A stretch of DNA of 64,000 nt from Nitrospirota bacterium (lineage in GTDB: Bacteria; Nitrospirota; Thermodesulfovibrionia; Thermodesulfovibrionales; UBA6898). The notes under the pieces were generated by a model, which did not search any database, was not told where the DNA came from, and was given only the letters and a program-made list of their open reading frames with translations. Location: contig JAKAIE010000002.1 of assembly GCA_021814475.1 (NCBI GenBank), positions 1-64,000 of the forward strand. The letters run 5' to 3'. The first letter of the stretch is position 1, and each line of letters starts with the position of its first letter. The position numbers and the translations under genes are program-made. Positions 9,241-36,897 of this stretch are shown piece after piece.

Positions 9241-9275
9241 GGGGAAGGAAAACTTTTTTTTGCCGTATCCGCCTT

Positions 9276-9406: not shown

Positions 9407-9486
9407 AAACAAGGTTCAGAAGGAGCCGGCTGGCTGCGAAGAATTCGAAAATGAGGGGGCGCTTCAATAAAATATTCCGGGGTTTC

Positions 9487-9514
9487 TAAAGTTTCTCTTT
9501 CGATCTTCCGATAC
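9487..9514 (+). promoter_or_regulatory. sigma-28-like promoter of the motility/c-di-GMP operon
   Basis: TAAAGTTT (9487-9494) is a perfect -35 element. After 12-13 bases comes CCGATA (9508-9513) within TCCGATAC, a good -10 with one extra spacer base. The first gene downstream starts at 9566 with GGAGG before it. This would place the following regulators and stators in the late flagellar regulon. Confidence 0.75.
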
Positions 9515-9565
9515 ATGAATTAGAGGTGCGCAGCCTCAACGCCATGCATTGGAGGTAGTAAAGAC

Positions 9566-9763
9566 ATGACCGTGTTACCTTTCCAGTTAACAGAAGTGGT
9601 TAGGCTCTATAACAGGGTATCCAAGCTTAACCCGTCTACACTGCTTGAAAAGGAGCATGGAGAACCTCAGGACATTGTAAGCATTTCTGCCGAGGGGAAG
9701 AAGAAGCAGATCCTGGAGCAGACCAAGAACGAGGTTCTTGAGCGAATAAAAGAAGCGATGTAG
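9566..9763 (+). CDS. Small FlgM-locus-type protein, function unknown
   Basis: 65 residues, first gene behind the sigma-28-like promoter. The C-terminal half ('DIVSISAEGKKKQILEQTKNEV' in part) resembles the 'V.IS.EGK...I..Q...EVLE.I' helix seen in small proteins found beside flgM in delta-type bacteria (the DVU0524 type), and recalls the FlgM-type 'V.lS..a' stretch. There is no membrane segment. It is followed one base later by the response regulator gene. The family link is from memory and tentative; that it is a real gene is well supported by its RBS GGAGG and by its position. Confidence 0.7.
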   Translation: MTVLPFQLTEVVRLYNRVSKLNPSTLLEKEHGEPQDIVSISAEGKKKQILEQTKNEVLERIKEAM

Positions 9764-9764
9764 G

Positions 9765-10364
9765 ATGGAGAAGAAAGACTTCCGGATACTTGTAGCCGAT
9801 GACGACGAGATAGCGCGTGACGTGATAACCTCTCTCCTCAAGAGAGAGGGATACGCCGTTTTATCCGCGCTTGACGGGCTGGATGCTATAAGGATCCTGA
9901 GAGTTGAAGATATCGGGCTGGTTATTACGGATCTTCGCATGCCGGGGGCCGACGGGATCGAGGTCCTCAAGTACGCCGTCAGGAGCAATCCTGATATCGC
10001 AGTCGTGATCCTTACCGCATATGGCACCCTTGACACCACACTTGAAGCGATCAAGGAAGGGGCCTATGATTATCTTACGAAGCCTTTCAAAGGGCAGGAG
10101 ATGATCCTGGTCGCAGACAGGGCGTACAAGCGGATGGTGCTCCTGCAGGACAACAAGGAACTGACGAGACATCTCCGCGAAACTTATCGTGATATGGAGA
10201 TACTCAAGAATGTGGTAGCCAGCGGCCATCCTGAGGTGACGGCTGGGTGGCTGGAGCGTATCGAGCGGCTGAAGGCCATGAGCGTGCTCACCGAGAACGA
10301 ATCGCTGATATTAAAGGAGAGGCTGATCAAAGGTGACGGAAAAGGGCTCGGTTCTTATAGTTGA
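9765..10364 (+). CDS. CheY-like response regulator with helical tail
   Basis: 199 residues. Residues 6-120 form a receiver domain: acidic triad 'VADDDE' at residue 10-14, phosphoacceptor Asp in 'VITDLRMPGADG', Thr in 'ILTAYG' and Lys in 'LTKPFKG'. The remaining 75 residues are charged and helical, with no recognised output domain, so it may act by protein contact. The next gene starts inside its end (32-base overlap), suggesting one regulatory unit. Confidence 0.88.
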   Translation: MEKKDFRILVADDDEIARDVITSLLKREGYAVLSALDGLDAIRILRVEDIGLVITDLRMPGADGIEVLKYAVRSNPDIAVVILTAYGTLDTTLEAIKEGAYDYLTKPFKGQEMILVADRAYKRMVLLQDNKELTRHLRETYRDMEILKNVVASGHPEVTAGWLERIERLKAMSVLTENESLILKERLIKGDGKGLGSYS

Positions 10365-11820
10365 CGACGATCCGGTCGTCCGGAACGTCCTCCTCGATAT
10401 CCTGGGAAGTGTCGGCGGGTATAGGACCGATGTGGCCGTTGACGGTCTCGACGGCATAGAAAAGCTCAAGCAGCGTCAATACGATATTGTCTTTACCGAC
10501 CTTACCATGCCCCGGATGAATGGCATGGACCTGCTGAGAGAGACGAAAAAGCTGAATCCCGCCCAGTCGGTCGTTGTCATCACGGGGTTTTCCACCCTCG
10601 ATAATGCGATCAACGCGATGAAAGAGGGCGCCCGCGACTTCATCACAAAACCGTTCAAGATAAATACGGTCGTATCCATCGCCGACAGGATCGTCGGGGA
10701 AAAGAAGCTCCTTGGCCGTCTCTCGGAGCCCGGAGAGGGCGGGACGGCGATGGAGAGACTGAACAAGGAACTCTTCAGGAGCCTTTACGAAATAGGTATT
10801 TTCCACATGGTCAGCACCGAGCTTGACGGCATCTTCAATAATCGTGAGGTCTACGAAAGTCTTGTCGATATGGCATCGAGACTCCTCAACGTACGGGAGG
10901 CGTCCTTCGGAATTGTCGACAACGGCAGTCTCAAGGTGGAAAATGCTCTCGGCACGACGGTACAAAGGATCTCGATCAACGGCACGGTCTTAGAGAAGGT
11001 GATCAGCGCGAAGAGTTATTATATCGCCCCGCCGGGCGAATTGAACCCCCATACGGGGGCCCCGCTCTCCTGCCCGTTCTTCTCGATACCGTTTATCATG
11101 AACGACGAGGTCTTCGGCATCCTGAACCTGGCAAACAAGGCCGACGGTACCGCGTTCACCGATTACGAGATATCGCTTGCGGCTGCCTTTGCCAAAAAGG
11201 CGGCCCTCAGGATCGAAAACAATGCACTGTATGAGGTGTTTTACAATAACCTCGTCAATACCCTGAAGTCGCTGGTCACCAGTATAGAGGCGCGGGACAG
11301 TTATACAAAGCAGCACTCGGAGCGGGTCACGTCCTACTCCCTCCAGATAGCCGAGCAGATGGAGGTCTGCCCTGAGGAACGCGATATTATCAGCTTCGGC
11401 GGGTATCTCCATGACATCGGGAAGATCGGGGTCAGGGACACGGTACTTCTGAAACCCGGAAGGCTGACGGAGGAGGAGATGCTTGAGATCAAGCTGCATC
11501 CGGTGATCGGAGACAATATCATAAAACCGATAAAGTTCTTTCCGCGTGAAAGGGAACTGATCCGGAATCATCACGAGCACTTCGACGGAACCGGGTACCC
11601 CGACGGCCTTGCCGGCAACAGGATTCCTCTGATCGTGAGGATCATTAAGATTGCCGACACCTACGACGCCATGACGTCATCCCGGCCATACCGGAAGGCT
11701 CTGAGCCACGAAATCGCGATCGAGGAGCTGAAGAAGTATTCCTGGACACAGTTCGACGGAGATGCGGTCCATGCGTTTCTCAGGACTCCTGCTGGCAGGG
11801 GAGAGACCCTTGGGTTTTAA
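10333..11820 (+). CDS. REC-GAF-HD-GYP cyclic-di-GMP phosphodiesterase
   Basis: 495 residues in three parts: a receiver domain (1-120; 'LIVDDDP', 'FTDLTMPRMNG', 'TKPFK'), a GAF-like domain (about 150-305) and an HD-GYP domain (310-480). The last has 'HDIGKIG', 'HHEHFDGTGYPDGL' and 'ADTYDAMTS', all key metal-binding and GYP residues intact. It should hydrolyse c-di-GMP under control of phosphorylation and an unknown GAF ligand. The start is GTG at 10333. A PilZ effector and two stator pairs follow in the same operon, so it probably tunes motility. Confidence 0.93.
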   Translation: MTEKGSVLIVDDDPVVRNVLLDILGSVGGYRTDVAVDGLDGIEKLKQRQYDIVFTDLTMPRMNGMDLLRETKKLNPAQSVVVITGFSTLDNAINAMKEGARDFITKPFKINTVVSIADRIVGEKKLLGRLSEPGEGGTAMERLNKELFRSLYEIGIFHMVSTELDGIFNNREVYESLVDMASRLLNVREASFGIVDNGSLKVENALGTTVQRISINGTVLEKVISAKSYYIAPPGELNPHTGAPLSCPFFSIPFIMNDEVFGILNLANKADGTAFTDYEISLAAAFAKKAALRIENNALYEVFYNNLVNTLKSLVTSIEARDSYTKQHSERVTSYSLQIAEQMEVCPEERDIISFGGYLHDIGKIGVRDTVLLKPGRLTEEEMLEIKLHPVIGDNIIKPIKFFPRERELIRNHHEHFDGTGYPDGLAGNRIPLIVRIIKIADTYDAMTSSRPYRKALSHEIAIEELKKYSWTQFDGDAVHAFLRTPAGRGETLGF

Positions 11821-26142: not shown

Positions 26143-26217
26143 GGGCGATTAGCTCAGCGGGAGAGCACTCCCTTCACACGGGAGGGGTCACTGGTTCAAT
26201 CCCAGTATCGCCCACCA
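26143..26217 (+). tRNA. tRNA-Val (anticodon CAC)
   Basis: 75 bases fold into a standard cloverleaf: acceptor stem GGGCGAT / ATCGCCC, D-arm AGCTC..GAGC, anticodon stem CTCCC / GGGAG around TTCACAC (anticodon CAC), T-arm CTGG-TTCAATC-CCAG and an encoded CCA end. The 3' 28 bases form part of the attachment site of the adjacent integrated element, and the integration keeps the tRNA intact. Confidence 0.96.
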
Positions 26218-26223
26218 TAACCT
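26190..26223 (+). repeat. attL: left 34-bp direct repeat (tRNA-Val 3' end)
   Basis: Begins in the tRNA T-arm (ACTGGTTCAATC) and runs through CCA into ATAACCT. It is identical to 36614-36647. Confidence 0.92.
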
Positions 26224-26244
26224 ATTGATATTAAAGAATATTAG

Positions 26245-26264
26245 AAATGGCTTAAACTAGCCAT
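26245..26264. repeat. Palindromic arm site, left end
   Basis: AAATGGCTTAAACTAGCCAT: ATGGCT and AGCCAT form an inverted repeat around TAAACT. An identical 20-mer lies at 36666-36685, to the right of attR. A variant (ATGGCTTAAATACGCCAT) lies at 36581-36598. Probably a recombinase or excisionase binding site. Confidence 0.75.
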
Positions 26265-26304
26265 GACCTGCCGTAACTCCCCGAGAATAAACAATAAAAC
26301 ACGA

Positions 26305-26327
26305 CCGTCACCAGACCGTCACCACAA
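26305..26327. repeat. Arm-type direct repeat, left end
   Basis: Two CCGTCACCA units separated by GA. The whole 23-base block is repeated exactly at 36549-36571, just inside the other end of the element. Such paired short repeats at both ends are typical of the arm sites bound by the N-terminal domain of tyrosine integrases. Confidence 0.75.
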
Positions 26328-26494
26328 ATGTTTAATTCCCTTCGGCATAAGGCGCGGGAAGTGGTTATCTCCTGAATAAACAAAAAAGCGCTGGGGTTGA
26401 CTGATAGGCTACTCTCTGAGATAATCGTGGTTATGGGGACGCTGCCTGATAGCAAATCACACAGTAAACCGCCGCTTAACGCGGGGACTGTTGA

Positions 26495-27052
26495 ATGATA
26501 GAAGATCCGGGCGATAGCCTTATACCTGAGTCAGAAATGCCCCCCGGATGGGATTCTATTATCCCGGATGAGGAAATGGTTGGGGCTATCCCTTTGAACG
26601 GTCCTGATGCATCTAAACCAGTCACAGACCCACAAACGCCTGTATTCCCTCCCGGCTCTATCCATGATGCAGGACACCCGCCGATGGACACCCCGCAGAT
26701 CATGGAAATGATAGCTGAGCGCCTATCAGGTCCAGTCAAGGCCATGTACGAGGCAGACATTACCCGTGGCGTATCTCATTATGACGCGATGCTTCGTATA
26801 CTCGATACCACCGCAGGAGCTAGACAAGCTCAAAGAATATATCGGACTTTTATGGGAGTGAAAGAAGAATCTGTAAAACCGCCTATTAATGCCAGTAAAA
26901 AGAAACCCAAACCCGCCTATAACGCTTATGAAGACATAAGCCACTATAAAGCTGCAATCCCATCTTTTGTACTCTATTTGTGCCCGTCATGTGGGGCGAA
27001 GAACACACAGCCTAGAAAATGCGCCAGATGTGGCAGGGAATGTCTTGGGTAA
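26495..27052 (+). CDS. Hypothetical element protein with C-terminal zinc ribbon
   Basis: 185 residues, first gene of the element. The first 70 residues are Pro/Asp-rich and probably disordered. Residues 70-125 are helical. The C-terminus holds 'CPSCGAKNTQPRKCARCG', a four-cysteine zinc ribbon. There is no signal peptide. A GGGGA lies before the ATG. I do not know the family; nucleic-acid or protein binding through the ribbon is possible. Confidence 0.65.
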   Translation: MIEDPGDSLIPESEMPPGWDSIIPDEEMVGAIPLNGPDASKPVTDPQTPVFPPGSIHDAGHPPMDTPQIMEMIAERLSGPVKAMYEADITRGVSHYDAMLRILDTTAGARQAQRIYRTFMGVKEESVKPPINASKKKPKPAYNAYEDISHYKAAIPSFVLYLCPSCGAKNTQPRKCARCGRECLG

Positions 27053-27278
27053 TTTTCTTGGTCCTCATGGGGGTGACATGAAGCTGCCTTTTACCGGGTC
27101 ATTGATACCGAATATGGAACAAAGCAATGCAGGGTGATATATCGTTTCCTTTTGCGGCATAAGATAATAGGCACCAAATGAGGGAGTATACGCACACCTT
27201 CCCTTTACTATCGCTTAGATGGTAGTATGTACAGGGCATCTTTGATGCCGGGGAATATAACTAACGGGGAGTGGGGAC

Positions 27279-27572
27279 ATGAAAAGACTTCTTTTTGCTG
27301 TTCTGTTGAGCATGATGTTATCTGGTGTTGTCAGTGCTGAATGGGTGCGGGGATCTTATAAGGATACAGACGGAGACGGCATTAAAGACACCTATGTTAA
27401 CGGATATAACCGGACCAAGGCTGACAACAATCCTTACAATAATTACAGTACGCGGGGGAATGTGAATCCATATACGGGACAGTCTGGCACGGTGAACCCA
27501 TACAAGCAGAATTCCAACACCAGATATAACAATACCTATCAGAATCCTTACAGTAATTACTACGGCAGATAA
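27279..27572 (+). CDS. Small secreted Asn/Tyr-rich protein
   Basis: 97 residues with a clear signal peptide 'MKRLLFAVLLSMMLSGVVSA', cleaved near residue 20. The mature part starts 'EWVRGSYKDTDGDGIKDTYV', which looks like a calcium-binding DxDxDG loop, and continues with repeated NPY units (NPYNNYS, NPYTGQSG, NPYKQ, NPYSNYY). It is exported and probably disordered or matrix-like. A GGAG-type RBS precedes it and a strong terminator follows, so it is its own transcription unit. No function known. Confidence 0.75.
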   Translation: MKRLLFAVLLSMMLSGVVSAEWVRGSYKDTDGDGIKDTYVNGYNRTKADNNPYNNYSTRGNVNPYTGQSGTVNPYKQNSNTRYNNTYQNPYSNYYGR

Positions 27573-27600
27573 CGATAAATAAGCCGATTCTGTCTAAGAA

Positions 27601-27626
27601 GCCCTGCCGGGTGCAGGGCTTTATTA
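27601..27626 (+). terminator. Rho-independent terminator
   Basis: GCCCTG-loop-CAGGGC (27601-27620) followed by TTTATT, 28 bases after the stop codon of the NPY-repeat gene. Confidence 0.85.
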
Positions 27627-27682
27627 TGTCTGGTAGCTCATTACGGCTTCTGTAATTCTTGGCAGGTATCTTAGGCGCGGGA

Positions 27683-27841
27683 CTATCTGCTTTTCTTCTG
27701 GTACTTCTTCAGCAGATCTTCGATAGCCTCAGTTACGAGAGAACTTAAAGATCGCCCTGTATCAACAGCAAGGTGCTTGACCGCCTTCAGTGTGTTTTCT
27801 TCTATTCGGATGCCTGTCTGTTTCTTCGTAGTTTCTGCCAT
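27683..27841 (-). CDS. Ribbon-helix-helix (Arc/CopG-type) transcriptional repressor
   Basis: 52 residues, a short gene on the minus strand. It has the RHH layout: a basic N-terminal strand ('KKQTGIRIEENTLKAVK' with the beta strand 'TGIRI'), helix A with 'LKAVKHLAVDTGRSL', then helix B 'SSLVTEAIEDLLKKYQ'. Such dimers bind operator pairs. It is divergent from the serine recombinase gene, and the shared 120-base region holds two facing promoters and a 10-bp inverted repeat, so it probably represses itself and the recombinase. The start codon coincides with the predicted transcription start, so the message may be leaderless. Confidence 0.85.
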   Translation of the reverse strand: MAETTKKQTGIRIEENTLKAVKHLAVDTGRSLSSLVTEAIEDLLKKYQKKSR

Positions 27842-27846
27842 GCCTC

Positions 27847-27875
27847 ATTATATGCCTATAGAGGTACCATGTCAA
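27847..27875 (-). promoter_or_regulatory. Consensus sigma-70 promoter of the RHH gene
   Basis: On the minus strand TTGACA (27875-27870), exactly 17 bases, then TATAAT (27852-27847). Both hexamers are perfect. The predicted start site falls at or within a base of the ATG at 27841. A GGTACCAT element lies in the spacer. Confidence 0.9.
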
Positions 27876-27930
27876 CAAATTATATTGACAACATCATGCA
27901 TGGGTGGTAGTATGTGTATAACATGGTACC
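27863..27930. repeat. 10-bp inverted repeat flanking the divergent promoters
   Basis: GGTACCATGT at 27863-27872 and its reverse complement ACATGGTACC at 27921-27930, 48 bases apart. The left copy lies in the spacer of the RHH promoter and the right copy just downstream of the recombinase start site. Most likely operators for the RHH repressor. Between them TGTCAA/TTGACA (27870-27875, 27885-27890) forms a further inverted pair. A recombinase-invertible segment is a less likely alternative. Confidence 0.75.
27885..27913 (+). promoter_or_regulatory. sigma-70 promoter of the serine recombinase gene
   Basis: TTGACA (27885-27890), 17 bases, TAGTAT (27908-27913). The start site near 27920 coincides with the right operator half. 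Confidence 0.7.
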
Positions 27931-27967
27931 AACATACCACGTGACGAAAACGAAAAGGGGAATGAAA

Positions 27968-28642
27968 ATGAAAAAGGCAGTAGGTTATATCCGCGTATCT
28001 ACCACAGAGCAGGCCACAGAAGGAATCTCCCTTGATAACCAGAAATCCAAGATAGCCGCTTATTGCGCCCTGAATGACCTTGAGCTTATCGAGATCATAG
28101 AGGATGCAGGGAAGAGCGGCAAGAACCTTTCCCGCGACGGCGTACAGGCGCTTATGAGCATGGTTAAGGGCAAGCGCATTGACGCGGTAGTCGTTTATAA
28201 GCTCGACAGGCTTTCTAGGAAGGTCATAGACACGCTTACGCTGATAGAGACGATAGAAAGGGCCGGGGTCACTTTCCACAGTCTGAATGAAAAAATAGAC
28301 ACGTCTACGGCAATGGGCCGGTTCTTCCTCAATATTACGGCTTCCCTTGCACAGATGGAAAGGGACCTGATCAGCGAGAGGACAAAGGACGCGCTTCAGA
28401 TGAAGATAGCAAACCATGAGAGGGCCGGGCAAATCCCTTTCGGGTGGAGGCTGGCAGATGATGGAAATACCCTCATACCGCATGAGGCACAGCAGGAGGT
28501 GATAGCACAGGTTAAGATGCTTCATAGTCAGGGTATGTCTTACCGGGCAATCTGTGAGGCTCTGACGAAGGCAGGACATAGGCCACAAGGTAAGGCATGG
28601 CAGCCGAAAACAATCGGACGAATTATAAAGAAGGCCGCATAG
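27968..28642 (+). CDS. Serine recombinase (resolvase/invertase family)
   Basis: 224 residues. The catalytic domain has Ser11 in 'GYIRVSTTEQ', then 'GISLDNQKSKIAAYC', 'DAGKSGKNLSRDGVQ', 'AVVVYKLDRLSRKVIDTL' (Arg pair) and 'ATASLAQMERDLISERT'-type helix E ('TASLAQMERDLISERTKDAL'). The C-terminus (150-224) is a short helix-turn-helix DNA-binding domain with 'FGWRLADDGNTLIPHEAQQ...MSYRAICEAL'. It is a small resolvase-type enzyme, not a large serine integrase. I start at ATG 27968, behind AGGGG, not at upstream ATGs. Possibly a resolvase, inverter or regulator of the element. Confidence 0.93.
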   Translation: MKKAVGYIRVSTTEQATEGISLDNQKSKIAAYCALNDLELIEIIEDAGKSGKNLSRDGVQALMSMVKGKRIDAVVVYKLDRLSRKVIDTLTLIETIERAGVTFHSLNEKIDTSTAMGRFFLNITASLAQMERDLISERTKDALQMKIANHERAGQIPFGWRLADDGNTLIPHEAQQEVIAQVKMLHSQGMSYRAICEALTKAGHRPQGKAWQPKTIGRIIKKAA

Positions 28643-28686
28643 CGTGTGGCGCGATGGTCGGTGTGTCACACAGAAAGGATATGAAT

Positions 28687-28920
28687 ATGAACACGCCTTT
28701 AAGTGAGCGAGAAGCAAGACGGCAAATAAAAGGCATACTGTCAAGTACAAACCCGATTCCATGGTATAGGAACCGTTGGACGTTAGTATGGACGGTAATA
28801 ATACCTATTGTATTAAGCGTTATCGTGTTGCTATATCAGAACAAACAGCTATGGGAGGCTAATAACGCATTGACTGATAAAATCAACAAATTGGAGGCCG
28901 CGATACACGTATCGTCCTGA
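28687..28920 (+). CDS. Small single-span membrane protein
   Basis: 77 residues. Residues 1-25 are charged ('LSEREARRQIKGIL'), residues 33-52 form one membrane segment ('WTLVWTVIIPIVLSVIVLLY') and the C-terminus is a short coiled coil. I place the start at ATG 28687, with AAAGGA seven bases before it, rather than in the recombinase gene. It is followed by a terminator. Function unknown. Confidence 0.6.
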   Translation: MNTPLSEREARRQIKGILSSTNPIPWYRNRWTLVWTVIIPIVLSVIVLLYQNKQLWEANNALTDKINKLEAAIHVSS

Positions 28921-28935
28921 TATGGAGGTTTACTG

Positions 28936-28964
28936 AAGGCCCTGGGGAGACTCGGGGCCTTTTC
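28936..28964 (+). terminator. Rho-independent terminator
   Basis: GGCCC-tggggagactcg-GGGCC stem followed by TTTTCT. The stem is GC-rich, and on the opposite strand it could also end the lipoprotein gene (28992). Confidence 0.8.
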
Positions 28965-28991
28965 TCATTGACTTCTTCCGGTGCGGGTTCG

Positions 28992-29477
28992 CTATTGCAA
29001 ATGATCTTCCTCTTTCATCACCTTTTCGATATGTTTTACTGCATCTTCAAAGCCGCTGCCCGACTTATCAACTATCATTCCATCTTTTACTCCTTTTTCG
29101 TATTGAGCGAAGGCAAGCATTTGCTTTGTTTGCCCGTCGAACAAATATCTATGTAAATAATCCGGGGCTATTTTGGCATTTGCCGTTTGGACTACAACTT
29201 CAACATAGCATCGGTTTGTCCTTGGCTCGTACTTAGATATTTGAGATGAAGCAAGTGCAACCCCTACGGGGTTTTCTTTAACAATCATATTCCCTAGCCT
29301 TGCGCATTCTGACCGAAGATTAAATATTTCAGTAGCGGATTGTGGCAGAGGGCGAACTGTTGGAGGTGATGCAGGAACGGAAGGCGTAAACTGAGGAACC
29401 GCAGGTATCGTCTTTTGTTCATTACAGGAACTCAAAACAACTATGGCAAGCAGCATGACATAATAAGACGTTTTCAT
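28992..29477 (-). CDS. Element-encoded lipoprotein
   Basis: 161 residues with a lipoprotein signal peptide, lipobox LSSC at residue 15-18. A Pro/Ser/Thr-rich linker (residues 25-45) leads to an alpha-beta domain with 'YLFDGQTKQMLAFAQYEKGVKDGMIVDKSG', ending in acidic helices. The family is unknown to me. A lipoprotein on an element often acts at the envelope, for example in surface exclusion; that is inference. Confidence 0.72.
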   Translation of the reverse strand: MKTSYYVMLLAIVVLSSCNEQKTIPAVPQFTPSVPASPPTVRPLPQSATEIFNLRSECARLGNMIVKENPVGVALASSQISKYEPRTNRCYVEVVVQTANAKIAPDYLHRYLFDGQTKQMLAFAQYEKGVKDGMIVDKSGSGFEDAVKHIEKVMKEEDHLQ

Positions 29478-29562
29478 TCGCTGACCCTCCCCGAATTAAT
29501 TCATGCCAAATTATACCAGAGTTAGACCCGTATATCAGGCAACCACCCCGAAGGGGAACCAT

Positions 29563-30849
29563 TTAGCTGATAGCTCTAATTGTTTTCCCTGTATAGTTTT
29601 TGAAGCGTTTCTTGAAGGCTTGCGGCTGCTTTTTATAACCTTCAGTCTTTAGCGAATAGTCGATTTTAACACCTGTGGCAAGTACCCGCCTTACTTTCTT
29701 TTCAACAATCTCGGCTCTTACTTTGTCAGCATAGTCAAATATATCTTTTAGTGGGATCATGTCAAAGTTGTTTTCATCGGCTATTGGCGCGGCGGCAGTT
29801 GTTGCAGGTCGAGATAGGAAGGGCACTATATCGTCTGGCAATACCTCAGTTCTTTTGTAGCTCTGTGCATGCCTTACGGCAAATCTGATTATGCTTTCAA
29901 GCTCTCTGTAATTTCCCTCGTAGTTGTGGCGCAATAGCACAGAGATGCTCCCGGGGGGCAGGTGCCTACTGAATGCCGTTCCTAGATTCATTTTATCTAG
30001 TGTCGTGTCGTAAGCCCCGCAAAGGGAGCCAATTGCATCGGGGCGTTTTAGTCTTTCGTTTAGCGGAGGAAGTTCGATCTTGTACACGGGGTAGTTGAGA
30101 CGATACAGCAGGTCGGGGAGTATGTCATTAATGCTTTTTGGCTGCGTGGCAGCAAGCACCCTGAATGATACCGCAATATCTTTGTTGCTTCCGAGTCGCC
30201 GTAAACTCTTCTCTTCAATGACCCGCAATATCTTAGCCTGTAGATAGGGGTCCATCTTGCCGAGTTCGTCAAGGAATAGTGTACCGCTGTCGGCTTCTTC
30301 TATCAGCCCCTTTTTTGATGCGGTTGCACCAGAGAAAGCACCTTTTTCGAAGCCGAAGAGTTCAGACTCAAGAAGATCCTTAGGGATGGCTGCACAGTTT
30401 ATCGAGATCAGTTTATCAGAAGGCTTTTCGCTTAACCAGTGGATCATGTTGGCAAACCTTTCCTTCCCCGTTCCAGTATCCCCAGCAATGAGTAGCGATT
30501 CGTCCGAGTCAACCAGGGCGCTAAAAAGCCTTCTATCATATTCTTGAGCCAACTCCCTGAAGTTATAGAAACCAAAAGCGAAGAGGGTAACGTACTCGAT
30601 TTCGTCCAGCGATCGAAACACCCTCTTAAAATACTTGAGGAAATGATCTTTCTTTAAGCTCTTTGGGATTGCCTCATCTGAGAGGTAATGCACGATATAG
30701 AGACCGGGGGCGGCTTTATGTTCTGCATCAGGTAGCCTTAATCTTTTTGCTTCTGCCCTCAGATTATTTAACAGGTCTTCGGATGTTCTGCTTTTTCCAA
30801 GGGCATTACTTACGAGTGCCGTTACGGTGTGCAGGGCAGTCTTTTTCAT
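29563..30849 (-). CDS. sigma-54-dependent AAA+ activator (enhancer-binding protein)
   Basis: 428 residues. The N-terminal 110 residues are a regulatory region unlike REC, GAF or PAS. The AAA+ core follows: Walker A 'GDTGTGKE' (123-130), loop 1 'GAFSGA' (170-175, a GAFTGA variant), Walker B 'GTLFLDELGKM', sensor II 'LLYRLNYPVYKIELPPLNER'. A helix-turn-helix-like C-terminus ends in 'RFKNYTGKTIRAIS'. It should activate sigma-54 RNA polymerase. I favour ATG 30849 over upstream codons. A sigma-54 promoter with a paired inverted repeat lies in the divergent region, so it probably controls the replication operon. Confidence 0.92.
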   Translation of the reverse strand: MKKTALHTVTALVSNALGKSRTSEDLLNNLRAEAKRLRLPDAEHKAAPGLYIVHYLSDEAIPKSLKKDHFLKYFKRVFRSLDEIEYVTLFAFGFYNFRELAQEYDRRLFSALVDSDESLLIAGDTGTGKERFANMIHWLSEKPSDKLISINCAAIPKDLLESELFGFEKGAFSGATASKKGLIEEADSGTLFLDELGKMDPYLQAKILRVIEEKSLRRLGSNKDIAVSFRVLAATQPKSINDILPDLLYRLNYPVYKIELPPLNERLKRPDAIGSLCGAYDTTLDKMNLGTAFSRHLPPGSISVLLRHNYEGNYRELESIIRFAVRHAQSYKRTEVLPDDIVPFLSRPATTAAAPIADENNFDMIPLKDIFDYADKVRAEIVEKKVRRVLATGVKIDYSLKTEGYKKQPQAFKKRFKNYTGKTIRAIS

Positions 30850-30912
30850 TATCCTTGTCTGTTCCTTTCTCATCATAATACTAAGCACGGATATAGTATA
30901 AAAAATAAATAC

Positions 30913-30951
30913 CAATAATGTATATGTTGCACCGCTTAATTGTCATTATTG
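30913..30951. promoter_or_regulatory. Inverted repeat, likely enhancer site of the sigma-54 activator
   Basis: CAATAATG (30913-30920) and CATTATTG (30944-30951) are a perfect inverted pair with 23 bases between; their centres are 31 bases apart, about three helical turns. They lie 25-64 bases upstream of the -24 element, the usual place for an activator site. Confidence 0.65.
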
Positions 30952-30973
30952 TTAAATATCCATGGGTTAGGTC

Positions 30974-30990
30974 TTGGCATGAAAGTAGCA
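30974..30990 (+). promoter_or_regulatory. sigma-54 (-24/-12) promoter of the replication operon
   Basis: TTGGCAT-gaaag-TAGCA: GG at 30976-30977 and GC at 30988-30989 are separated by ten bases, matching TGGCAC-N5-TTGCA at the key positions. The start site would be near 31001, 33 bases before the first gene (31034). An activator gene is divergent from it. Confidence 0.78.
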
Positions 30991-31033
30991 ATTATAGTGC
31001 TGAAGTCAAATGTTACATAAAGGAGAAGAAGAG

Positions 31034-31273
31034 ATGCAGAAAAAGGAACAGATACTTTTTGATGACACAATCCTCGTAGGAGTCCTTAAAGCCTTTGGTA
31101 TAACCTTCACCCCCCATAGCGATCATGGGCGCGTACGTTTTGCTGCGAGCGGCGATATAGATGATGCACTCAGGCGGATCTATGACAACGCACCGGTGGG
31201 GGCAAGGGACGTTCTAGAACAAATCAAACTGACCCGTAGCGCGGTATTTTCACTCAAAGGTGGCCGCTCATGA
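31034..31273 (+). CDS. Small element protein, first gene of the replication operon
   Basis: 79 residues, alpha-beta. It begins 'MQKKEQILFDDTILVGVLKAFG', contains 'PHSDHGRVRFAASGD' and ends in helix 'DVLEQIKLTRSAVF'. No known motif. I start at ATG 31034 behind AAGGAG, nine bases upstream, rather than ATG 31010. It overlaps the next gene by ATGA. It follows the sigma-54 promoter directly. Confidence 0.7.
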   Translation: MQKKEQILFDDTILVGVLKAFGITFTPHSDHGRVRFAASGDIDDALRRIYDNAPVGARDVLEQIKLTRSAVFSLKGGRS

Positions 31274-31446
31274 GTAGATCGAAACGTTTCCCCGTCAAGC
31301 CCTACCGCCTCACCTCGAAGAAACGTAAAGACCTTGCCCGGTTGCTGCGCTTCTATGTTGACGAACTAGCAGCCGGACCCTTTACACAGCACAGGTCAAG
31401 CCTGATGGATTGTTGCGCTGCGCTCCTGGCGGAATTGGAGGGTTGA
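31270..31446 (+). CDS. Small basic element protein (58 aa)
   Basis: A 58-residue gene overlapping its neighbour by ATGA and ending six bases before the primase gene. It is rich in Lys/Arg at the N-terminus ('MSRSKRFPVKPYRLTSKKRK') and contains 'LLRFYVDELAAGPF' and a Cys pair ('MDCCAALLAEL'). The basic N-terminus suggests nucleic-acid contact; function unknown. The tight coupling supports it as a real gene. Confidence 0.62.
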   Translation: MSRSKRFPVKPYRLTSKKRKDLARLLRFYVDELAAGPFTQHRSSLMDCCAALLAELEG

Positions 31447-31451
31447 TCGGA

Positions 31452-33092
31452 ATGAATCAGCTGCAGGCCGCTCTGATGTATTCACAGAAGATGAAATATT
31501 CCGTTATCCCTGTGGGCCGGGACAAGAAGCCGCTTATCAAATGGGAGGCGTACCAGAAACAAAGAGCCAATGAGCAGGAGATCAGGGCATGGGCTAAACA
31601 ATGGCCGGATATGAATATCGGAATTGTTACCGGCGTTGTCTCAGGGCTTGCAGTAATTGACGTAGACGACGCAGAACAGGCAGACCCTATACTTGATACC
31701 CTTTTGCCGGACTCAGTGCCAATACCGAGTGCACAGACACCCTCAGGCGGTAAGCATTACTATTTCACGATCACTGATGACAAGCTTTCAAATAATGCCC
31801 GGCTGATCCCCGGTGCCGATTTAAGGGCAAACGGCGGTTATGTCGTCGCCCCTCCCTCAGTTGGTGCCAATGGCAAGCCATACGCATGGATGCAGGGCCT
31901 TAGCATTGATGAGGTTATGCCTTCGCCCCTGCCCGCCGCCTATCTGCAGGCGCTCAAGCCTGCATGTATTAATAAAAATGTATTAATAAGAGAGGGGTGT
32001 AAGGATGCTTACATAAACGACTCTCTATCCTTCAAGCAGGGAACACGCGACAATGATATATTCCACGTTGCTAACTGCCTTGTCAAAGGCGGGATGAGTG
32101 ATGCTGAAATCCTGCAAGTTCTTGAAAAGATAGCACTTTCTTGCGAGCCACCTTTCCCGACTGATGAGCTTGAAGCAAAAATTCTCAGCGCAATTAAGCG
32201 GCAGGAGCACCGGGAAATCAACTTGACGAAGGAGGTTGAACAGTGGGTTTTCCTTACAGATGGTGACTTTTCTCTTACAGATGTTTACACCCACTTACAG
32301 AACATTACCGGCCTTACAAAACCTTACAAGAACGCAGTACAGCAGATTTTTCATAGACTGAAGAGCCGTGGAGTAGTCAGGAAGATCGGCAGCAAGAATG
32401 GTGTTTACCGTCGGATAGATACTGATGATTGCCCCGATATGGATATCGAGAACGTATCCACTGAAGCTCATCCTTTGCAGTTGCCTCTCAGGTTGCGTGA
32501 ACTGGTTAAGGTTATGCCCAAGAACATCATCGTTGTTGCCGGGGCGAAGTCTGCAGGCAAAACGGCCTTTCTCATGAATACCGCATATCTCAATCGGAAT
32601 TATAAAGAAGGGGTTTATTACTACAACTCCGAGATGGGGCCGGAGGAGCTGCGTATCAGAATAGATGAATTTGAAACGCCTTTATCGGAGTGGAAGAAGA
32701 TCAGATTCAAGGAGCGAACAAGCAACTTTGCTGATGTTATCAAGCTAAATCCTGACAGCATTCACATAATAGACTTCCTCGAAATGCATGATGATTTTTT
32801 CCGGGTAGCTCAGTATATCCGCGAAGTATACGACGCTTTAGGCAAGGGCATAGCTGTTATTGCGATTCAGAAGAATGCTGGTCAAGATTATGGCTTAGGT
32901 GGTGCTCGATCAATAGAGAAGGCTCGGCTTTATCTCTCCCTCGATTACGGAAAAATCAAAATCACCGATGCAAAGATATTTGCTAGAAAGAGCGTTAACC
33001 CTAGAGGGCTTGAATTGGAATACAAATTAGCGGGTGGCTGCAAATATGTAGAAGTCGGGGACTGGCTGACACCTGGGGAGGGGAGAAGATGA
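31452..33092 (+). CDS. Primase-polymerase (prim-pol) fused to RecA-like ATPase
   Basis: 546 residues. Residues 1-185 are an archaeo-eukaryotic primase/polymerase domain: 'IPVGRDKKPLIKWEAYQ', 'IGIVTGVVSGLAVIDVDD' (Asp70, Asp72) and 'SGGKHYYF' (His102). A primase C-terminal helical bundle and a winged helix (about 265-325) follow. From residue about 350 a RecA-fold ATPase has Walker A 'GAKSAGKT' near 363. This layout is common in replication proteins of phages, satellites and integrative plasmids. GGAGGG precedes ATG 31452. It should start replication of the excised element. Confidence 0.9.
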   Translation: MNQLQAALMYSQKMKYSVIPVGRDKKPLIKWEAYQKQRANEQEIRAWAKQWPDMNIGIVTGVVSGLAVIDVDDAEQADPILDTLLPDSVPIPSAQTPSGGKHYYFTITDDKLSNNARLIPGADLRANGGYVVAPPSVGANGKPYAWMQGLSIDEVMPSPLPAAYLQALKPACINKNVLIREGCKDAYINDSLSFKQGTRDNDIFHVANCLVKGGMSDAEILQVLEKIALSCEPPFPTDELEAKILSAIKRQEHREINLTKEVEQWVFLTDGDFSLTDVYTHLQNITGLTKPYKNAVQQIFHRLKSRGVVRKIGSKNGVYRRIDTDDCPDMDIENVSTEAHPLQLPLRLRELVKVMPKNIIVVAGAKSAGKTAFLMNTAYLNRNYKEGVYYYNSEMGPEELRIRIDEFETPLSEWKKIRFKERTSNFADVIKLNPDSIHIIDFLEMHDDFFRVAQYIREVYDALGKGIAVIAIQKNAGQDYGLGGARSIEKARLYLSLDYGKIKITDAKIFARKSVNPRGLELEYKLAGGCKYVEVGDWLTPGEGRR

Positions 33093-33310
33093 CAACCATG
33101 AAAGCCGAGTATGCAGCCTTCGGCGGGTGGCTTTCAGAGCGAGACATGATAGACCGTCATACGACCGCCTACAAGCGCGTCAGAGAGGCTATCGACACAA
33201 TGGATAGGGCTATGGTCAGGGGTGACGTTAAAGGCTTCCTTGAGGCCGTCAGAAACGCAAAATACTCATACATCGAAGCAGAAGAGGAAAGGACCACAAA
33301 TGAGAATTGA
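33089..33310 (+). CDS. Small element protein
   Basis: 73 residues, almost all helical ('YKRVREAIDTMDRAMVRGDVKGFLEAVRNAKYSYIEAEEE'), acidic at the C-terminus. It overlaps the primase gene by ATGA and runs into the next gene. No recognised domain; a protein-binding accessory of replication is possible. Confidence 0.65.
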   Translation: MTTMKAEYAAFGGWLSERDMIDRHTTAYKRVREAIDTMDRAMVRGDVKGFLEAVRNAKYSYIEAEEERTTNEN

Positions 33311-33506
33311 AGACCGTCTTAATAAACTGGAAAAGAAGATACCGCTTGCATCAACAAAGAGGCTGCATTCCGTAGAAGAATTGAAGGCGATAGCAGAGAC
33401 GATGCTGACGAAGACTGACGACGAACTGAAAAACAGAATGTTCACGCCTGATCAACTGCGGAAGATAGCTACGCAGTATCTACGGAGCCGGAACAATGGA
33501 CAGTAA
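33300..33506 (+). CDS. Small coiled-coil element protein
   Basis: 68 residues starting 'MRIEDRLNKLEKKIPLAS', an amphipathic helix, then 'VEELKAIAETMLTKTDDELKNRMFTPDQLRKIATQYL'. The beginning resembles that of the gene at 33876 ('SRRIEKLEQALPET'), so the two may share a short N-terminal coiled coil. I start at ATG 33300 with AAAGGA before it. Function unknown. Confidence 0.65.
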   Translation: MRIEDRLNKLEKKIPLASTKRLHSVEELKAIAETMLTKTDDELKNRMFTPDQLRKIATQYLRSRNNGQ

Positions 33507-33879
33507 TCGTCAGAATCTTACACTTCCACCGAATCAGGCGCGGGCTATCCCGCTTATTCTTTCTGCCAGGAATATAGCAGAGGGATGCAAGAAGGCCAGG
33601 ATATCACGGGATACCTTTTACGACTGGTCGCGGCAGCCTGAATTTAAGGCAGAGTTTTACAGGCAGCGTCAGGAGATCATAGACGCGGCAACTCATGAAC
33701 TGAGGATGACCGTCGGGGATGCCGTCAACACTCTCCGGGAGCTTCTGACCAGTAATGAAGATAGCGTGAGACTGAGAACAGCGCAGACCCTACTTGAAAA
33801 CATCCTCAAGTTTACCGAACTGCAGGACGTACAGGAAAGGCTAGCAGCGATCGAGCAACGAATGGAGGCCGGCAGATGA
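33496..33879 (+). CDS. HTH protein resembling phage terminase small subunit / phBC6A51 type
   Basis: 127 residues. The N-terminal half is a helix-turn-helix: 'PLILSARNIAEGCKKARISRDTFYDWSRQPEFKAEFYRQR'. The rest is long helices ending in 'LQDVQERLAAIEQRME', like an oligomerisation coil. The layout matches HTH proteins found with transposase-like or terminase small-subunit genes. If it is a TerS-like packaging protein, the element would be a phage satellite; a DNA-binding regulator is the alternative. Confidence 0.68.
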   Translation: MDSNRQNLTLPPNQARAIPLILSARNIAEGCKKARISRDTFYDWSRQPEFKAEFYRQRQEIIDAATHELRMTVGDAVNTLRELLTSNEDSVRLRTAQTLLENILKFTELQDVQERLAAIEQRMEAGR

Positions 33880-34124
33880 GGAATAACTTCAGCAGGCGGA
33901 TCGAGAAACTTGAACAAGCCCTGCCCGAAACGTCTCTTGATGAGACTAATGTTGCTATGCTCAGCGATGGGCGATCATATTATCAGGGGATAATCTATGA
34001 CAATTGGGAGGATATCCCGCGCCCTCTTTCGTCTAGTAACTTCGGGAATGACAGCGTATATGAAATGCCGTACCTTCTCACGCCCGAAGCAGAAAAACGC
34101 CTTCTGGAAAGGCTTCAGTCATGA
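33876..34124 (+). CDS. Hypothetical element protein
   Basis: 82 residues. It begins with 'FSRRIEKLEQALPE', like the gene at 33300, then has 'DGRSYYQGIIYDNWEDIPRPLSSSN' and ends in 'LLTPEAEKRLLERLQS'. No domain recognised. ATGA overlaps on both sides tie it to the TerS-like and nuclease genes. Confidence 0.6.
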   Translation: MRNNFSRRIEKLEQALPETSLDETNVAMLSDGRSYYQGIIYDNWEDIPRPLSSSNFGNDSVYEMPYLLTPEAEKRLLERLQS

Positions 34125-34417
34125 GCAACTGGAAGAGGCTTGAAAAGAAGGCAGCGGCTACCCTGGGCGGTACACGCAACAGCCGGGGCATGGATTTCAG
34201 TCTTTCCATTGGAGACGTTGAACATCCGCGTCTTTCTATCGAGTGCAAGTATCGGAACAAGATTAGCGGATTTCTGAAGGACGGGATAAAGCAGGCCGAA
34301 AGGTATTACCCTGAGAAGATCCCGGTCCTTGTCCTGAAGGAAAAGCATATGCGGGGGGAACTCGCAATACTCAAGCTGTCCGACTTTCAGAAGCTCTTCG
34401 GGGCTATCGGAGAATAG
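34121..34417 (+). CDS. PDDEXK-type nuclease (resolvase-like)
   Basis: 98 residues. The catalytic pattern is visible: Asp25 in 'RGMDFSLSI' followed by Glu41-x-Lys43 in 'LSIECKYRNK', with a beta strand and a helix on each side ('IKQAERYYPEKIPVLVLKEKHM'). The small size fits a Holliday-junction resolvase-like or restriction-like fold of phage elements. It probably trims or resolves DNA during replication of the element. It is followed eight bases later by the integrase. Confidence 0.8.
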   Translation: MSNWKRLEKKAAATLGGTRNSRGMDFSLSIGDVEHPRLSIECKYRNKISGFLKDGIKQAERYYPEKIPVLVLKEKHMRGELAILKLSDFQKLFGAIGE

Positions 34418-34424
34418 GCGGTCT

Positions 34425-35654
34425 GTGTCCGGCACCTTGACAGATATCGAGGCGATTGCTTATCTTCTCAATCAAGGGAATGAGGAGAAGATGAAGGGAA
34501 CGATCCGGCCTATCAGCAGTCAAAGCAAATGCCCTACCTGCAAAAGGCTATTTGAGGAAGTCTCTAAAATCGGGTATATCTGCAAGGAACACATGACGAT
34601 ACCGAGGAAGTTCTATATTGACCTATGGCATGAAGGGACCCGTATCAGAATCTTCACCAACAAATATGACAACCCCCTTGATAGTTATTCGGCTGCAAAG
34701 TCATTACTGAAACAGATCAACACTGACATTGATAACCGCACGTTTGACCCTACCCATTTTGTCAGAAAAGACAGGGAGAACTATTACCTTGAAGCGAGGT
34801 GGAACGAGTTTGTAAAGAAGCACACGAACCGGAAATACTCTCAGCAGTTAGATTTTGCAAAGGGATATATCTTCAGGCATTTCAGCATATCCCATGATAT
34901 CAGGGACATCAAGCAAAGTGATATTACCCTGTTTGCAGAGGCCCTGCCCGGTATGGCAAAGAAAGGGCTTGGCGGAAAGAGTATCAAGAATATTGTCGGG
35001 GTCCTGCTATCCCTGATCAACTACAATCACAGCCTGGGGGTAACATCTTCAAAGCTGACCCTGCCGAAGATCGAAGTTACGAAGAAGGTTAAGAATATCC
35101 CGGAGGTATCAGAAAGCCTGAAGATAATCAGTCATATCCCGGAAGAATGCCGGCTGATATTCCTGTTCCTGATAACGCACCTTTGCAGGCCTGCAGATGC
35201 AAGGGCATTGCAGGCCAGACACTTCGACTTCGAGAACAACACTGTCACTATTGAACTGGGCTTTTCCGGCAATGTCCTGTCATCGACAAAGACAAAGAAG
35301 CCGTACACAATCCCCTTGCATGCAGCACTGAGGGAGAGAATCCGGGACCTCTGTATTACCTGTATGCCTAATGACTTTGTTTTCACCTATGAGGGAAAGA
35401 GATGGGCAGAAGCCAAGATAAGGGAGATATGGAACGCTGCAGCAGTCAAGGCCGGATCAGTGGTCACCTTCTATAACGGGGTCAAGCATGCGTCAGTGTC
35501 TCATGCGGCGAATGAATCAGGGGATATATACAGCACGTCAAAGCTGACAGGACATACCAATATAAGGACCACCCAAATTTACGCTGATAAGACCCGCCTG
35601 GAGAAGCTGAGAAAGATACAAGAGACAATCGTTATACCTGAAGGGCTACTATAG
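34425..35654 (+). CDS. int: Tyrosine recombinase (integrase) of the element
   Basis: 409 residues. Residues 35-57 hold a small Cys/His motif ('CPTCKRLFEEVSKIGYICKEH'), an AP2-like arm-binding region follows, then a core-binding domain (about 115-210) and a catalytic domain. Catalytic Arg is in 'LITHLCRPADARAL', a 'TGHTNIRTTQIYADK' segment gives the His and the nucleophile Tyr. At the second box the usual HxxR is 'NGVK', so His and Arg appear to be Asn and Lys. The start could be GTG 34425 or ATG 34491. It should insert the element at tRNA-Val. Confidence 0.9.
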   Translation: MSGTLTDIEAIAYLLNQGNEEKMKGTIRPISSQSKCPTCKRLFEEVSKIGYICKEHMTIPRKFYIDLWHEGTRIRIFTNKYDNPLDSYSAAKSLLKQINTDIDNRTFDPTHFVRKDRENYYLEARWNEFVKKHTNRKYSQQLDFAKGYIFRHFSISHDIRDIKQSDITLFAEALPGMAKKGLGGKSIKNIVGVLLSLINYNHSLGVTSSKLTLPKIEVTKKVKNIPEVSESLKIISHIPEECRLIFLFLITHLCRPADARALQARHFDFENNTVTIELGFSGNVLSSTKTKKPYTIPLHAALRERIRDLCITCMPNDFVFTYEGKRWAEAKIREIWNAAAVKAGSVVTFYNGVKHASVSHAANESGDIYSTSKLTGHTNIRTTQIYADKTRLEKLRKIQETIVIPEGLL

Positions 35655-35702
35655 ATGGACAAAGGAGGAAAATCTATTGAGCCTGCCAGGGGTACGAGGC
35701 CT

Positions 35703-35731
35703 TGACAAATAATTGCAGGCTTGCTAAAGTA
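35703..35731 (+). promoter_or_regulatory. Promoter of a hairpin RNA upstream of the NYN gene
   Basis: TTGACA (35703-35708), 17 bases, TAAAGT (35726-35731). The start site would be near 35738, 128 bases before the NYN start codon. Confidence 0.6.
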
Positions 35732-35737
35732 TTTTCA

Positions 35738-35840
35738 CAACCCCTCGGAGTGTAAGCCTCCGAGTTTTATAGCCCCTCACTTGTTGCTTAGAGTGAGCTT
35801 TATAGTCCCGGGGAACCAAGTGGTTCCCCGCTTTTGTTTC
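35738..35840 (+). ncRNA. Candidate structured RNA: three tandem hairpins
   Basis: Three stems in about 100 bases: CTCGGAG/CTCCGAG (35744-35764), CTCAC/GTGAG (35776-35797), CGGGGAACCA/TGGTTCCCCG (35809-35830). The first two modules share the frame CCCCTC...GAG-(T/C)TTTATAG, so they look like diverged repeats; the third ends in a U-rich run. No ORF of useful size is present. It may be a small RNA, or a leader or attenuator for the NYN-nuclease gene 25 bases downstream. I recognise no named family. Confidence 0.65.
35809..35840 (+). terminator. Terminator of the hairpin RNA
   Basis: A ten-bp stem CGGGGAACCA/TGGTTCCCCG followed by CTTTTGTTTC. It lies 25 bases before the NYN start, so transcripts from the upstream promoter would either end here or read through. 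Confidence 0.8.
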
Positions 35841-35865
35841 AATTTCTAATATTGGGGATTATATC

Positions 35866-36471
35866 ATGAAAATTAAGATCTTCATTGATTTTTGGAATCT
35901 TCAACTCTCCTGGAATGAATATCATGAAAGAATTGGCTCTTCATCGAGGGTTCAAATCCCTTGGCGTACGATGCCTCAAGTATTGTGCAATCATTTAGGA
36001 CAGGGTTCTGAGTATTTTGGCACGCATGTATATGCATCAATTAATCCGAAGAATCACAAAGACCGTAAATTGAGATCATTTCTGCAAACGATGGATATGT
36101 TTCCGGGATATAAAGTAATTGTGAAAGAGCGAAAGCCAGCAAAGGCAATAAAGTGCACTGATGAAGGTTGCCGTAAAGCCATAACCCATTGTCCTCACTG
36201 TGGCAAAGAGCTTATTAGAACAGTTGAAAAAGGCGTTGATACCTCTATAGCGATTGAGCTTTTCCATTATGCGCTGGATAATGTTTATGACAAAGCTATT
36301 TTGATTTCAAACGATGCTGACTTTGTTCCTGCCATAGAGTATATACAAAGACGTGGTAACCATATTATTCATGCTGGTTTCAAGAATCAAGCATTTGAAA
36401 TTAAGAAAGCCTGCTGGGATCATATTGATTTAGAGAACATAATGCCAGAATTATTAGCGCCCTCACCGTAA
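35866..36471 (+). CDS. NYN-domain (LabA/PIN-like) nuclease with inserted zinc ribbon
   Basis: 201 residues. NYN fold: Asp8 and Asn11 in 'IFIDFWNLQLSW', Asp125 in 'KGVDTSIAIEL', Asp150 and Asp152 in 'ISNDADFVPAIEYI', the acidic residues expected to hold the metal of an RNase. A four-Cys ribbon (C97, C102, C109, C112) is inserted before Asp125. Base composition is more A/T-rich than the rest of the element, a sign of recent transfer. It is preceded by a candidate hairpin RNA and by the integrase. A defence or RNA-decay role is inferred. Confidence 0.86.
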   Translation: MKIKIFIDFWNLQLSWNEYHERIGSSSRVQIPWRTMPQVLCNHLGQGSEYFGTHVYASINPKNHKDRKLRSFLQTMDMFPGYKVIVKERKPAKAIKCTDEGCRKAITHCPHCGKELIRTVEKGVDTSIAIELFHYALDNVYDKAILISNDADFVPAIEYIQRRGNHIIHAGFKNQAFEIKKACWDHIDLENIMPELLAPSP

Positions 36472-36548
36472 AATATATCTTCTGAACAAGTTGTAGTATC
36501 GGTAACAGTGCTTACTCTAGAAGTAGTTTGAGAAAAATTCTCCTGTCG

Positions 36549-36571
36549 CCGTCACCAGACCGTCACCACAA
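36549..36571. repeat. Arm-type direct repeat, right end
   Basis: Identical 23-base block to 26305-26327: two CCGTCACCA units separated by GA. It lies 43 bases inside attR. Confidence 0.75.
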
Positions 36572-36580
36572 CTATTTCCG

Positions 36581-36598
36581 ATGGCTTAAATACGCCAT
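36581..36598. repeat. Palindromic arm site, right end (variant)
   Basis: ATGGC-TTAAATAC-GCCAT, a near-copy of the palindrome at 26245-26264. Confidence 0.65.
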
Positions 36599-36613
36599 TT
36601 GAAGGGCCTTTTT

Positions 36614-36647
36614 ACTGGTTCAATCCCAGTATCGCCCACCATAACCT
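36614..36647 (+). repeat. attR: right 34-bp direct repeat
   Basis: Exact copy of 26190-26223 containing the tRNA T-arm and CCA end without the rest of the tRNA. It marks the right boundary of the element. Confidence 0.92.
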
Positions 36648-36665
36648 CTTGATTTGAAAGATTGT

Positions 36666-36685
36666 AAATGGCTTAAACTAGCCAT
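36666..36685. repeat. Palindromic arm site outside attR
   Basis: Identical to the 20-mer at 26245-26264, which lies inside the left end. Since it belongs to the element's left end, its presence to the right of attR indicates the left end of a second related element. Confidence 0.7.
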
Positions 36686-36755
36686 CCGCCTTCTAACCCT
36701 CTGTATGGTGTCGTGTACAGTATCGAACAGACCTGGATTTTCGAACTGGCGATAA

Positions 36756-36848
36756 TGCATCTGCACTCAGCTATACGCCGATAAGTCCCGTCGTGAGAAG
36801 CTGAGGGAGAAACAGAGGCCGATTATCATCCCTGAGGGCCTTCTGTGA
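36756..36848 (+). pseudogene. 3' remnant of a second tyrosine integrase
   Basis: An open stretch of 30 codons ending in TGA reads 'ICTQLYADKSRREKLREKQR' and then 'PIIIPEGLL'. This matches the C-terminus of the intact integrase (TQIYADKTRLEKLRKIQ.. ..VIPEGLL), including the catalytic Tyr. A stop codon lies directly upstream. It is outside attR, so it comes from another, mostly deleted element. Confidence 0.82.
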
Positions 36849-36897
36849 TCTGGCATGTGTGTTGTATAATAGGTTTGATGACGGAGGCAATGCCAGA

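Follow-up and report, generated by a model that had tools for sequence, protein, structure and literature searches.

We analyzed a 64 kb stretch of DNA from a Nitrospirota bacterium (hereafter the window), in which a mobile element of about 10.4 kb is integrated in a tRNA-Val gene. We consider it rather likely that this element is switched on by a sigma-54 activator of its own, and that the activator gene and the -24/-12 promoter-like site that it faces form a cassette moved as a unit between elements. The activator gene is divergent from a one-strand run of genes that begins with a small gene, p87, and ends with an integrase gene; the site lies in the 184-nt intergenic region between activator and p87.

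In the mechanism that we propose, the N-terminal domain of the activator would perceive a signal, the activator would then bind upstream of p87, and its AAA+ ring would remodel host sigma-54 RNA polymerase waiting at the site, leading to open-complex formation. The run p87-PrimPol-TerS-like-nuclease-integrase would then start, so that a single switch would govern replication, recognition for packaging and excision. We infer that replication of the element is in this way dependent on sigma-54. The activator gene and the site would move together between elements with unrelated upstream regions.

The activator and the site that it faces

The activator reading frame could start at a TTG (29563-30915), the ATG listed in Table 1 being the likelier start. 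The protein carries a Sigma54_activat AAA+ domain with the three core motifs, namely Walker A (GDTGTGKE), a loop of the GAFTGA type (GAFSGA) and Walker B (GTLFLDE), as well as GNYRE and YRL stretches. An AlphaFold model computed with 17 relatives in the alignment shows a confident AAA+ domain, with predicted local distance difference test scores (pLDDT) of at least 92 in blocks 150-250. It also shows C-terminal helices at residues 367-391, 396-402 and 409-420 (pLDDT about 71-89) that resemble a Fis-type helix-turn-helix (HTH); the mean pLDDT of a single-sequence fold was only 32. The C-terminus aligns with the Fis-like ends of host activators and has no Pfam HTH match. The closest solved structure by sequence is the AAA+ domain of FleQ (4.5e-44, residues 104-329), followed by PspF (about 1e-36), and NtrC1 was matched by fold (Foldseek, 1.6e-19). 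Among viral models, the best Foldseek matches were other AAA+ ATPases.

The first 110 or so residues match no family model. In Pfam, PHROG, PADLOC and further profile scans (the latter two with the 428-aa form), all family matches, judged by their best stretches, start at residue 105 or later, and residues 39-105 have pLDDT below 50 in the AlphaFold model. CARF, receiver, GAF and PAS domains were considered for this region and rejected, since none gave a match in the profile scans. When the N-terminal 110 residues were searched separately, no credible match was found in 121 relatives, 230 class genomes or 395 phylum genomes (three overlapping sets), in IMG/VR (by pattern scan) or in phage records. 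The class genomes gave five weak non-self matches (E 0.014-0.06), four of them with internal stops.

The -24/-12 site, TTGGCATGAAAGTAGCA, contains GG-N10-GC at 30976-30989, that is GG and GC elements 10 bp apart in a consensus-like surround. This 17-mer agrees at 12 of 14 positions with a sigma-54 consensus. No other site on either strand of the window reaches this score (24 sites score 11), and when the intergenic region was shuffled 2000 times with dinucleotides preserved, the score was reached twice (0.1%). The host genome has one rpoN gene (PF04552, 1.9e-62). A preliminary description, made from the letters of the window, had proposed a mobile element with a GAFSGA-bearing AAA+ activator divergent from a -24/-12 promoter and its replication genes, and a regulatory region that is not REC, GAF or PAS. 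Our analysis bears out the element, the activator and a facing -24/-12 site, and the regulatory region matched none of these families.

That description had also seen a paired operator in the intergenic region. The two 8-bp arms, CAATAATG and CATTATTG, are indeed present and perfectly inverted, but 16% of 500 shuffles of the region also contain perfect 8-bp pairs separated by 5-60 nt, and no such pair stands at the corresponding place in the sole relative (locus L112, see below). We have consequently rejected the pair as a demonstrated operator. Each arm is by eye nearly self-complementary (6 of 8 positions against its own reverse complement). A sigma-70-like promoter for the activator overlaps both arms, and sigma-70-like sites number 4 in 30700-31300 against 1.2 expected (standard deviation 1.1). 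It is a tidy idea, suggested by this position, that the arms could serve auto-repression as well as activation.

Relatives of the switch and exchange at p87

A strict search with the whole activator (E <=1e-47) gave matches in 22 of the 229 genomes of the class. The top non-self match (E 9.9e-56) lies in the Magnetobacteriaceae genome nDJH14bin9 (contig JADFXP010000010.1, G109:C1, locus L112) and is the only one that extends to residue 424. When the genomes of 84,980 species were scanned by pattern (312 stretches tested), nDJH14bin9 was the one relative to be confirmed. With a profile of the C-terminal half, no other full-length match was found in the 395 phylum genomes; two further genomes matched its first 133-141 positions only (3e-13 and 4e-13). 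At L112 the activator and a homologue of p87 (34% identity) are again divergently arranged, and downstream of p87 come a CHC2 primase, a RepA/DnaB-like ATPase and an integrase beside a tRNA-Thr gene. The search for relatives recommended in the preliminary description recovered the divergent activator/p87 pair and the site, but not the inverted repeat at the same place. The N-terminal part of the L112 activator (9136-10707) contains a duplicated stretch ending in LPWVQ.

With a two-row profile of p87, 33 places were located, spread over 29 of the 229 genomes (E <=0.05). Besides L112, we examined 25 of the 31 new loci, omitting the six weakest (E >=0.0097), and p87 was confirmed in 24 of these 25 and in L112, giving 26 loci with the window. 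It is a small nameless family whose genes closely precede replication genes in many of the class's elements. In Pfam and PHROG 25 members had no match, there was no credible PDB match, and comparison of p87 with phage records gave nothing of use. Among the loci listed, the genes downstream of p87 are mostly primases, helicases and other replication genes, with phage-like genes in some. A variable protein with a lysine-rich start is often encoded directly upstream of p87 on the same strand.

An adjacent divergent activator was found at only two of the 26 p87 loci, the window and L112. At L145 and L146 receiver-type activators lie at least 2.5 kb from p87 with other genes intervening, and the contig of L151 starts 89 nt upstream of p87, so that nothing can be said of its upstream neighbour. 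In the 300 nt that precede p87, the best site of the window scores 12 at -60 from the ATG (0.5% of 200 shuffles) and that of L112, TTGGCATAAAATTTGTA, scores 11 at -104 (1% of 200 shuffles). In the other 24 loci the best scores are 8-10 (23 loci) and 11 at -299 (L144, 5% of shuffles). The co-occurrence of activator and site gives a Fisher p of 0.009, the loci being taken as independent and L151 counted as lacking an activator. The site might be real and yet served by a host activator, the element's own being silent or decayed. The host has 23 other activator matches and the L112 activator looks decayed; however, wherever p87 has no activator next to it (24 loci) the site is lacking too, apart from the 11-of-14 match at -299, and we regard this explanation as very improbable.

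A second element in nDJH14bin9 (L138) allows a closer comparison. Its p87 DNA is 91.5% identical to that of L112 over 236 nt, and the integrase regions of the two elements are 72.7% identical over 2.1 kb. The identity at p87 starts abruptly inside the gene, 36 nt from its start in L112 and 45 nt in L138, with no match upstream; activator and site are both present in L112 and both absent from L138. In the p87 tree, L112 and L138 are sisters (99/98) and the window groups with L144 and L150 (91/85). These supported branches force two changes of the activator trait, and a tree uniting both carriers was rejected (approximately unbiased test, p 0.02). From the co-occurrence, the identity break and the tree, activator and site appear to be gained and lost jointly in related elements, which suggests that they are swapped as one cassette. 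A single gain followed by several losses may also account for the pattern.

This pattern also bears on the idea that the activator is cargo serving host genes elsewhere and stands beside p87 by accident. Activators are common, with 24 matches in the host genome including the element's own. Against this, a second element shows the activator next to p87 in the same divergent arrangement, and the sister elements L112 and L138 cease to be identical at a point that keeps activator and site together. Such a role seems to us distinctly unlikely. We propose, more tentatively than for the window itself, that satellite-like elements of Thermodesulfovibrionia exchange whole regulatory cassettes at p87. 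One cassette type would be a self-contained sigma-54 switch, made of a new-sensor activator and its own -24/-12 promoter, that ties replication and excision to a leak-free, ATP-driven promoter and to a signal sensed by no known activator domain.

Several observations weigh against sigma-54 control of the run. The host genome contains 95 matches to the consensus (<=2 mismatches) and 157 to a reversed control, and a stricter form with a looser -12 half gives 5 and 13, these counts resting on two pattern searches. As the host shows no excess, a score of 12 of 14 is weak by itself, occurring about once in every 66 kb of strand. When the window and L112 intergenic regions were compared blind, the -24/-12 segment did come out on top, but 33.5% of shuffles equal it. 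Only two carriers of activator and site are known. In the FRED stretch as usually found, the first arginine is missing from the proteins of both; the second, which a review equates with PspF R168 (PMC7175178), is by eye retained in the alignment. In addition, the L112 activator has TTTSGV in place of GAFTGA and GATGTSKE in its P-loop, with loss of a P-loop glycine, and the L112 site has GT instead of GC at -12. A sigma-70-like promoter, TTGACT-17-TACAAT, lies downstream of that site, in a region with fewer sigma-70-like sites than its shuffles (4 against 7.1). The L112 locus may therefore not operate by sigma-54. As GAFTGA is described as contacting sigma-54 and the -11/-12 promoter DNA (PMC7175178), the losses on both sides in L112 point to joint decay or to a change of use to the sigma-70-like promoter.

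Alternatively, the window protein itself might act at a sigma-70 promoter, repressing or modulating its own gene and p87, with the -24/-12 match a leftover or due to chance. TyrR-like or degenerate activators act at sigma-70 promoters. The changes in L112 and its good sigma-70-like promoter fit this explanation, as does the overlap of sigma-70-like sites with the arms in the window. However, the window protein retains GAFSGA and a normal P-loop, and no plus-strand sigma-70-like site was found within 30700-31300. We consider action at a sigma-70 promoter unlikely, and continue to favor a sigma-54 switch in the window.

Borders and gene content of the element

The tRNA-Val gene occupies 26143-26217, and a 48-nt direct repeat containing its 3' end (26190-26237 and 36614-36661, 94% identity) marks the two ends of the element. 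With this duplication of the tRNA 3' end at both borders and an integrase gene, it is an integrative element in a tRNA gene, and its G+C content (0.46) differs from that of the flanks (0.55 and 0.57). Just past the right repeat, the sequence 36662-36850 is what remains of the tail of another, related integrase (70% identity to 35570-35650) and points to an earlier element that once occupied this tRNA gene. Short repeats lie near both ends, in 26237-26333 and 36549-36685: ATGGCTTAAA...GCCAT occurs three times and CCGTCACCAGACCGTCACCACAA twice. These are possibly integrase arm sites.

Table 1. Features of the tRNA-Val element, in coordinates of the 64 kb window.
Feature	Position	Strand	Remarks
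Integrated element	26190-36661		Between two 48-nt repeat copies containing the tRNA-Val 3' end; ~10.4 kb
Sigma-54 activator	29563-30849	-	428 aa from ATG; PF00158 Sigma54_activat 1.5e-49
Activator domains	residues ~1-105; ~106-345; ~365-425		N-terminal, no known family; AAA+ with GAFSGA; putative Fis-like HTH
Left arm, CAATAATG	30913-30920	+	Possible activator site
Sigma-70-like promoter for activator, ATGACA-18-TACATT	30917-30946	-	9 of 12; overlaps both arms
Right arm, CATTATTG	30944-30951	+	31 bp from left arm
-24/-12 site, TTGGCATGAAAGTAGCA	30974-30990	+	12 of 14 against consensus; transcription start predicted near 31001
p87	31034-31273	+	First gene of run; 79 aa from ATG 31034, 87 aa from ATG 31010
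58-aa open reading frame	31270-31446	+	Overlaps p87 end; read from sequence
PrimPol with DnaB-like C-terminal part	31452-33092	+	PF09250 1.2e-31; DnaB_C 8.4e-5, below its cut-off
Small-terminase-like (TerS-like) HTH protein	33496-33879	+	phrog_2538 3.7e-12, one PHROG profile
Holliday-junction-resolvase-like nuclease	34121-34417	+	phrog_244 1.8e-5
Tyrosine integrase	34425-35654	+	End of run; PF00589 1.5e-16
NYN-domain gene	35866-36471		Right end of element, after integrase; weak PADLOC match HEC-09, 4e-13

To the left of the activator, the element encodes a serine recombinase and a small putative lipoprotein. The plus-strand run comprises about nine open reading frames (ORFs), overlapping or closely spaced, in the order p87, 58-aa ORF, PrimPol, two small ORFs, TerS-like gene, 82-aa ORF, nuclease and integrase. 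No capsid, portal, tail or conjugation family was found in 11 ORFs of the element scanned with Pfam and PHROG; three further ORF scans were made with Pfam, one of these three ORFs having already been scanned with PHROG. With a primase/replication gene and a TerS-like gene but no structural genes among the 10 or 11 ORFs scanned, the element has the gene content of a phage-inducible chromosomal island. It is satellite-like by this content, and its life style may be that of a satellite.

PrimPol loci occur in 13 of the 229 class genomes. No activator adjoins them (AAA+ profile, E 1e-8), and four weaker AAA+-profile matches lie in L025 and L026. Scans of IMG/VR with PrimPol and with the whole activator gave no useful relatives. 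The genus also has a PrimPol relative (G001, 46-48%), which was rejected as a relative of the switch: it belongs to a prophage with large terminase (TerL) and portal-like genes, and neither activator nor p87 was detected there by blastp at E 1e-3. In a same-genus prophage (L022, 5500-7767), a large-terminase-like ORF contains by eye an intein-looking insert (CFVGDTLV ... GVLVSNC).

Comparison with known systems

The preliminary description had called the use of sigma-54 to drive replication of an integrated element unusual. The word is reasonable where replication genes of an element resembling a phage or satellite are concerned, but there is a precedent for an element that runs its own excision cascade through a regulator it carries. 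RteB is reportedly an activator of the NtrC, sigma-54 type. On CTnDOT, the two-component regulator RteA/RteB sets off a cascade that leads to excision and transfer of the element (PMC1976400), and Response_reg, Sigma54_activate and HTH_8 are among the domains named in PMC10865816 for finding elements of this kind. The likeness to the window is that of a mobile element bearing its own regulator. However, RteB is a response regulator with a kinase, RteA, and acts via RteC on a conjugative element, whereas the window has no receiver domain, kinase or conjugation gene in the families scanned, no family match preceding residue 105 of the activator, and its activator directly faces the replication run.

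RtcR is divergent from its sigma-54 promoter and, in one strain of Salmonella, is activated by way of a prophage (PMC9879122). The window activator shares this divergent layout, and its top PADLOC match is RtcR_PspF2 (5.6e-61). This match covers residues 112-371 only, and the CARF domain of the RtcR family was not found in the window protein. RtcR, whose regulatory domain is of the CARF type, is encoded on the chromosome and works in RNA repair, though in that strain the prophage makes its signal. With the enhancer-binding proteins PspF, FleQ and NtrC the window activator has in common the AAA+ domain and its core motifs; it differs in an N-terminal domain of no known family, a shortened FRED stretch and its location on an element.

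Compact AAA+ proteins of 235-304 aa were present in 30 of 50 IMG/VR loci (L045-L080), 23 of the 30 having G[AS]FTGA, and at L057 and L063 they sit within runs of phage genes. They share the AAA+ core of the window activator but match the AAA+ part of the model only, without receiver or HTH. Two IMG/VR contigs (L052, 5299-8888; L060, 2684-5657) encode a histidine kinase and, after it, a sigma-54 activator of the receiver type, with integrase-like genes nearby in L052; they are RteA/RteB-like by gene order only. On another viral contig (L073, 7803-8960), a receiver-less activator-like protein adjoins a large serine recombinase.

Phage-inducible chromosomal islands resemble the window element in tRNA-type integration, integrase, primase, TerS-like gene and the absence of structural genes among the scanned proteins; no helper is known for the window element. 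As far as is known, described islands use regulators of other types, and known prophage and satellite switches rest on repressors, anti-repressors or sigma-70 activators. No sigma-54 switch for phages, satellites or integrative elements was found in the literature searched, which left most subscription journals outside its scope. Sigma-54 promoters stay silent until an ATP-burning activator acts, so that an element carrying both halves would have a leak-proof switch wherever its host has rpoN. If the proposed mechanism is correct, the N-terminal domain of the activator would report a new signal for induction, and the boundary at p87 would offer a natural system of exchangeable regulatory modules in which changes of control in mobile elements can be studied.
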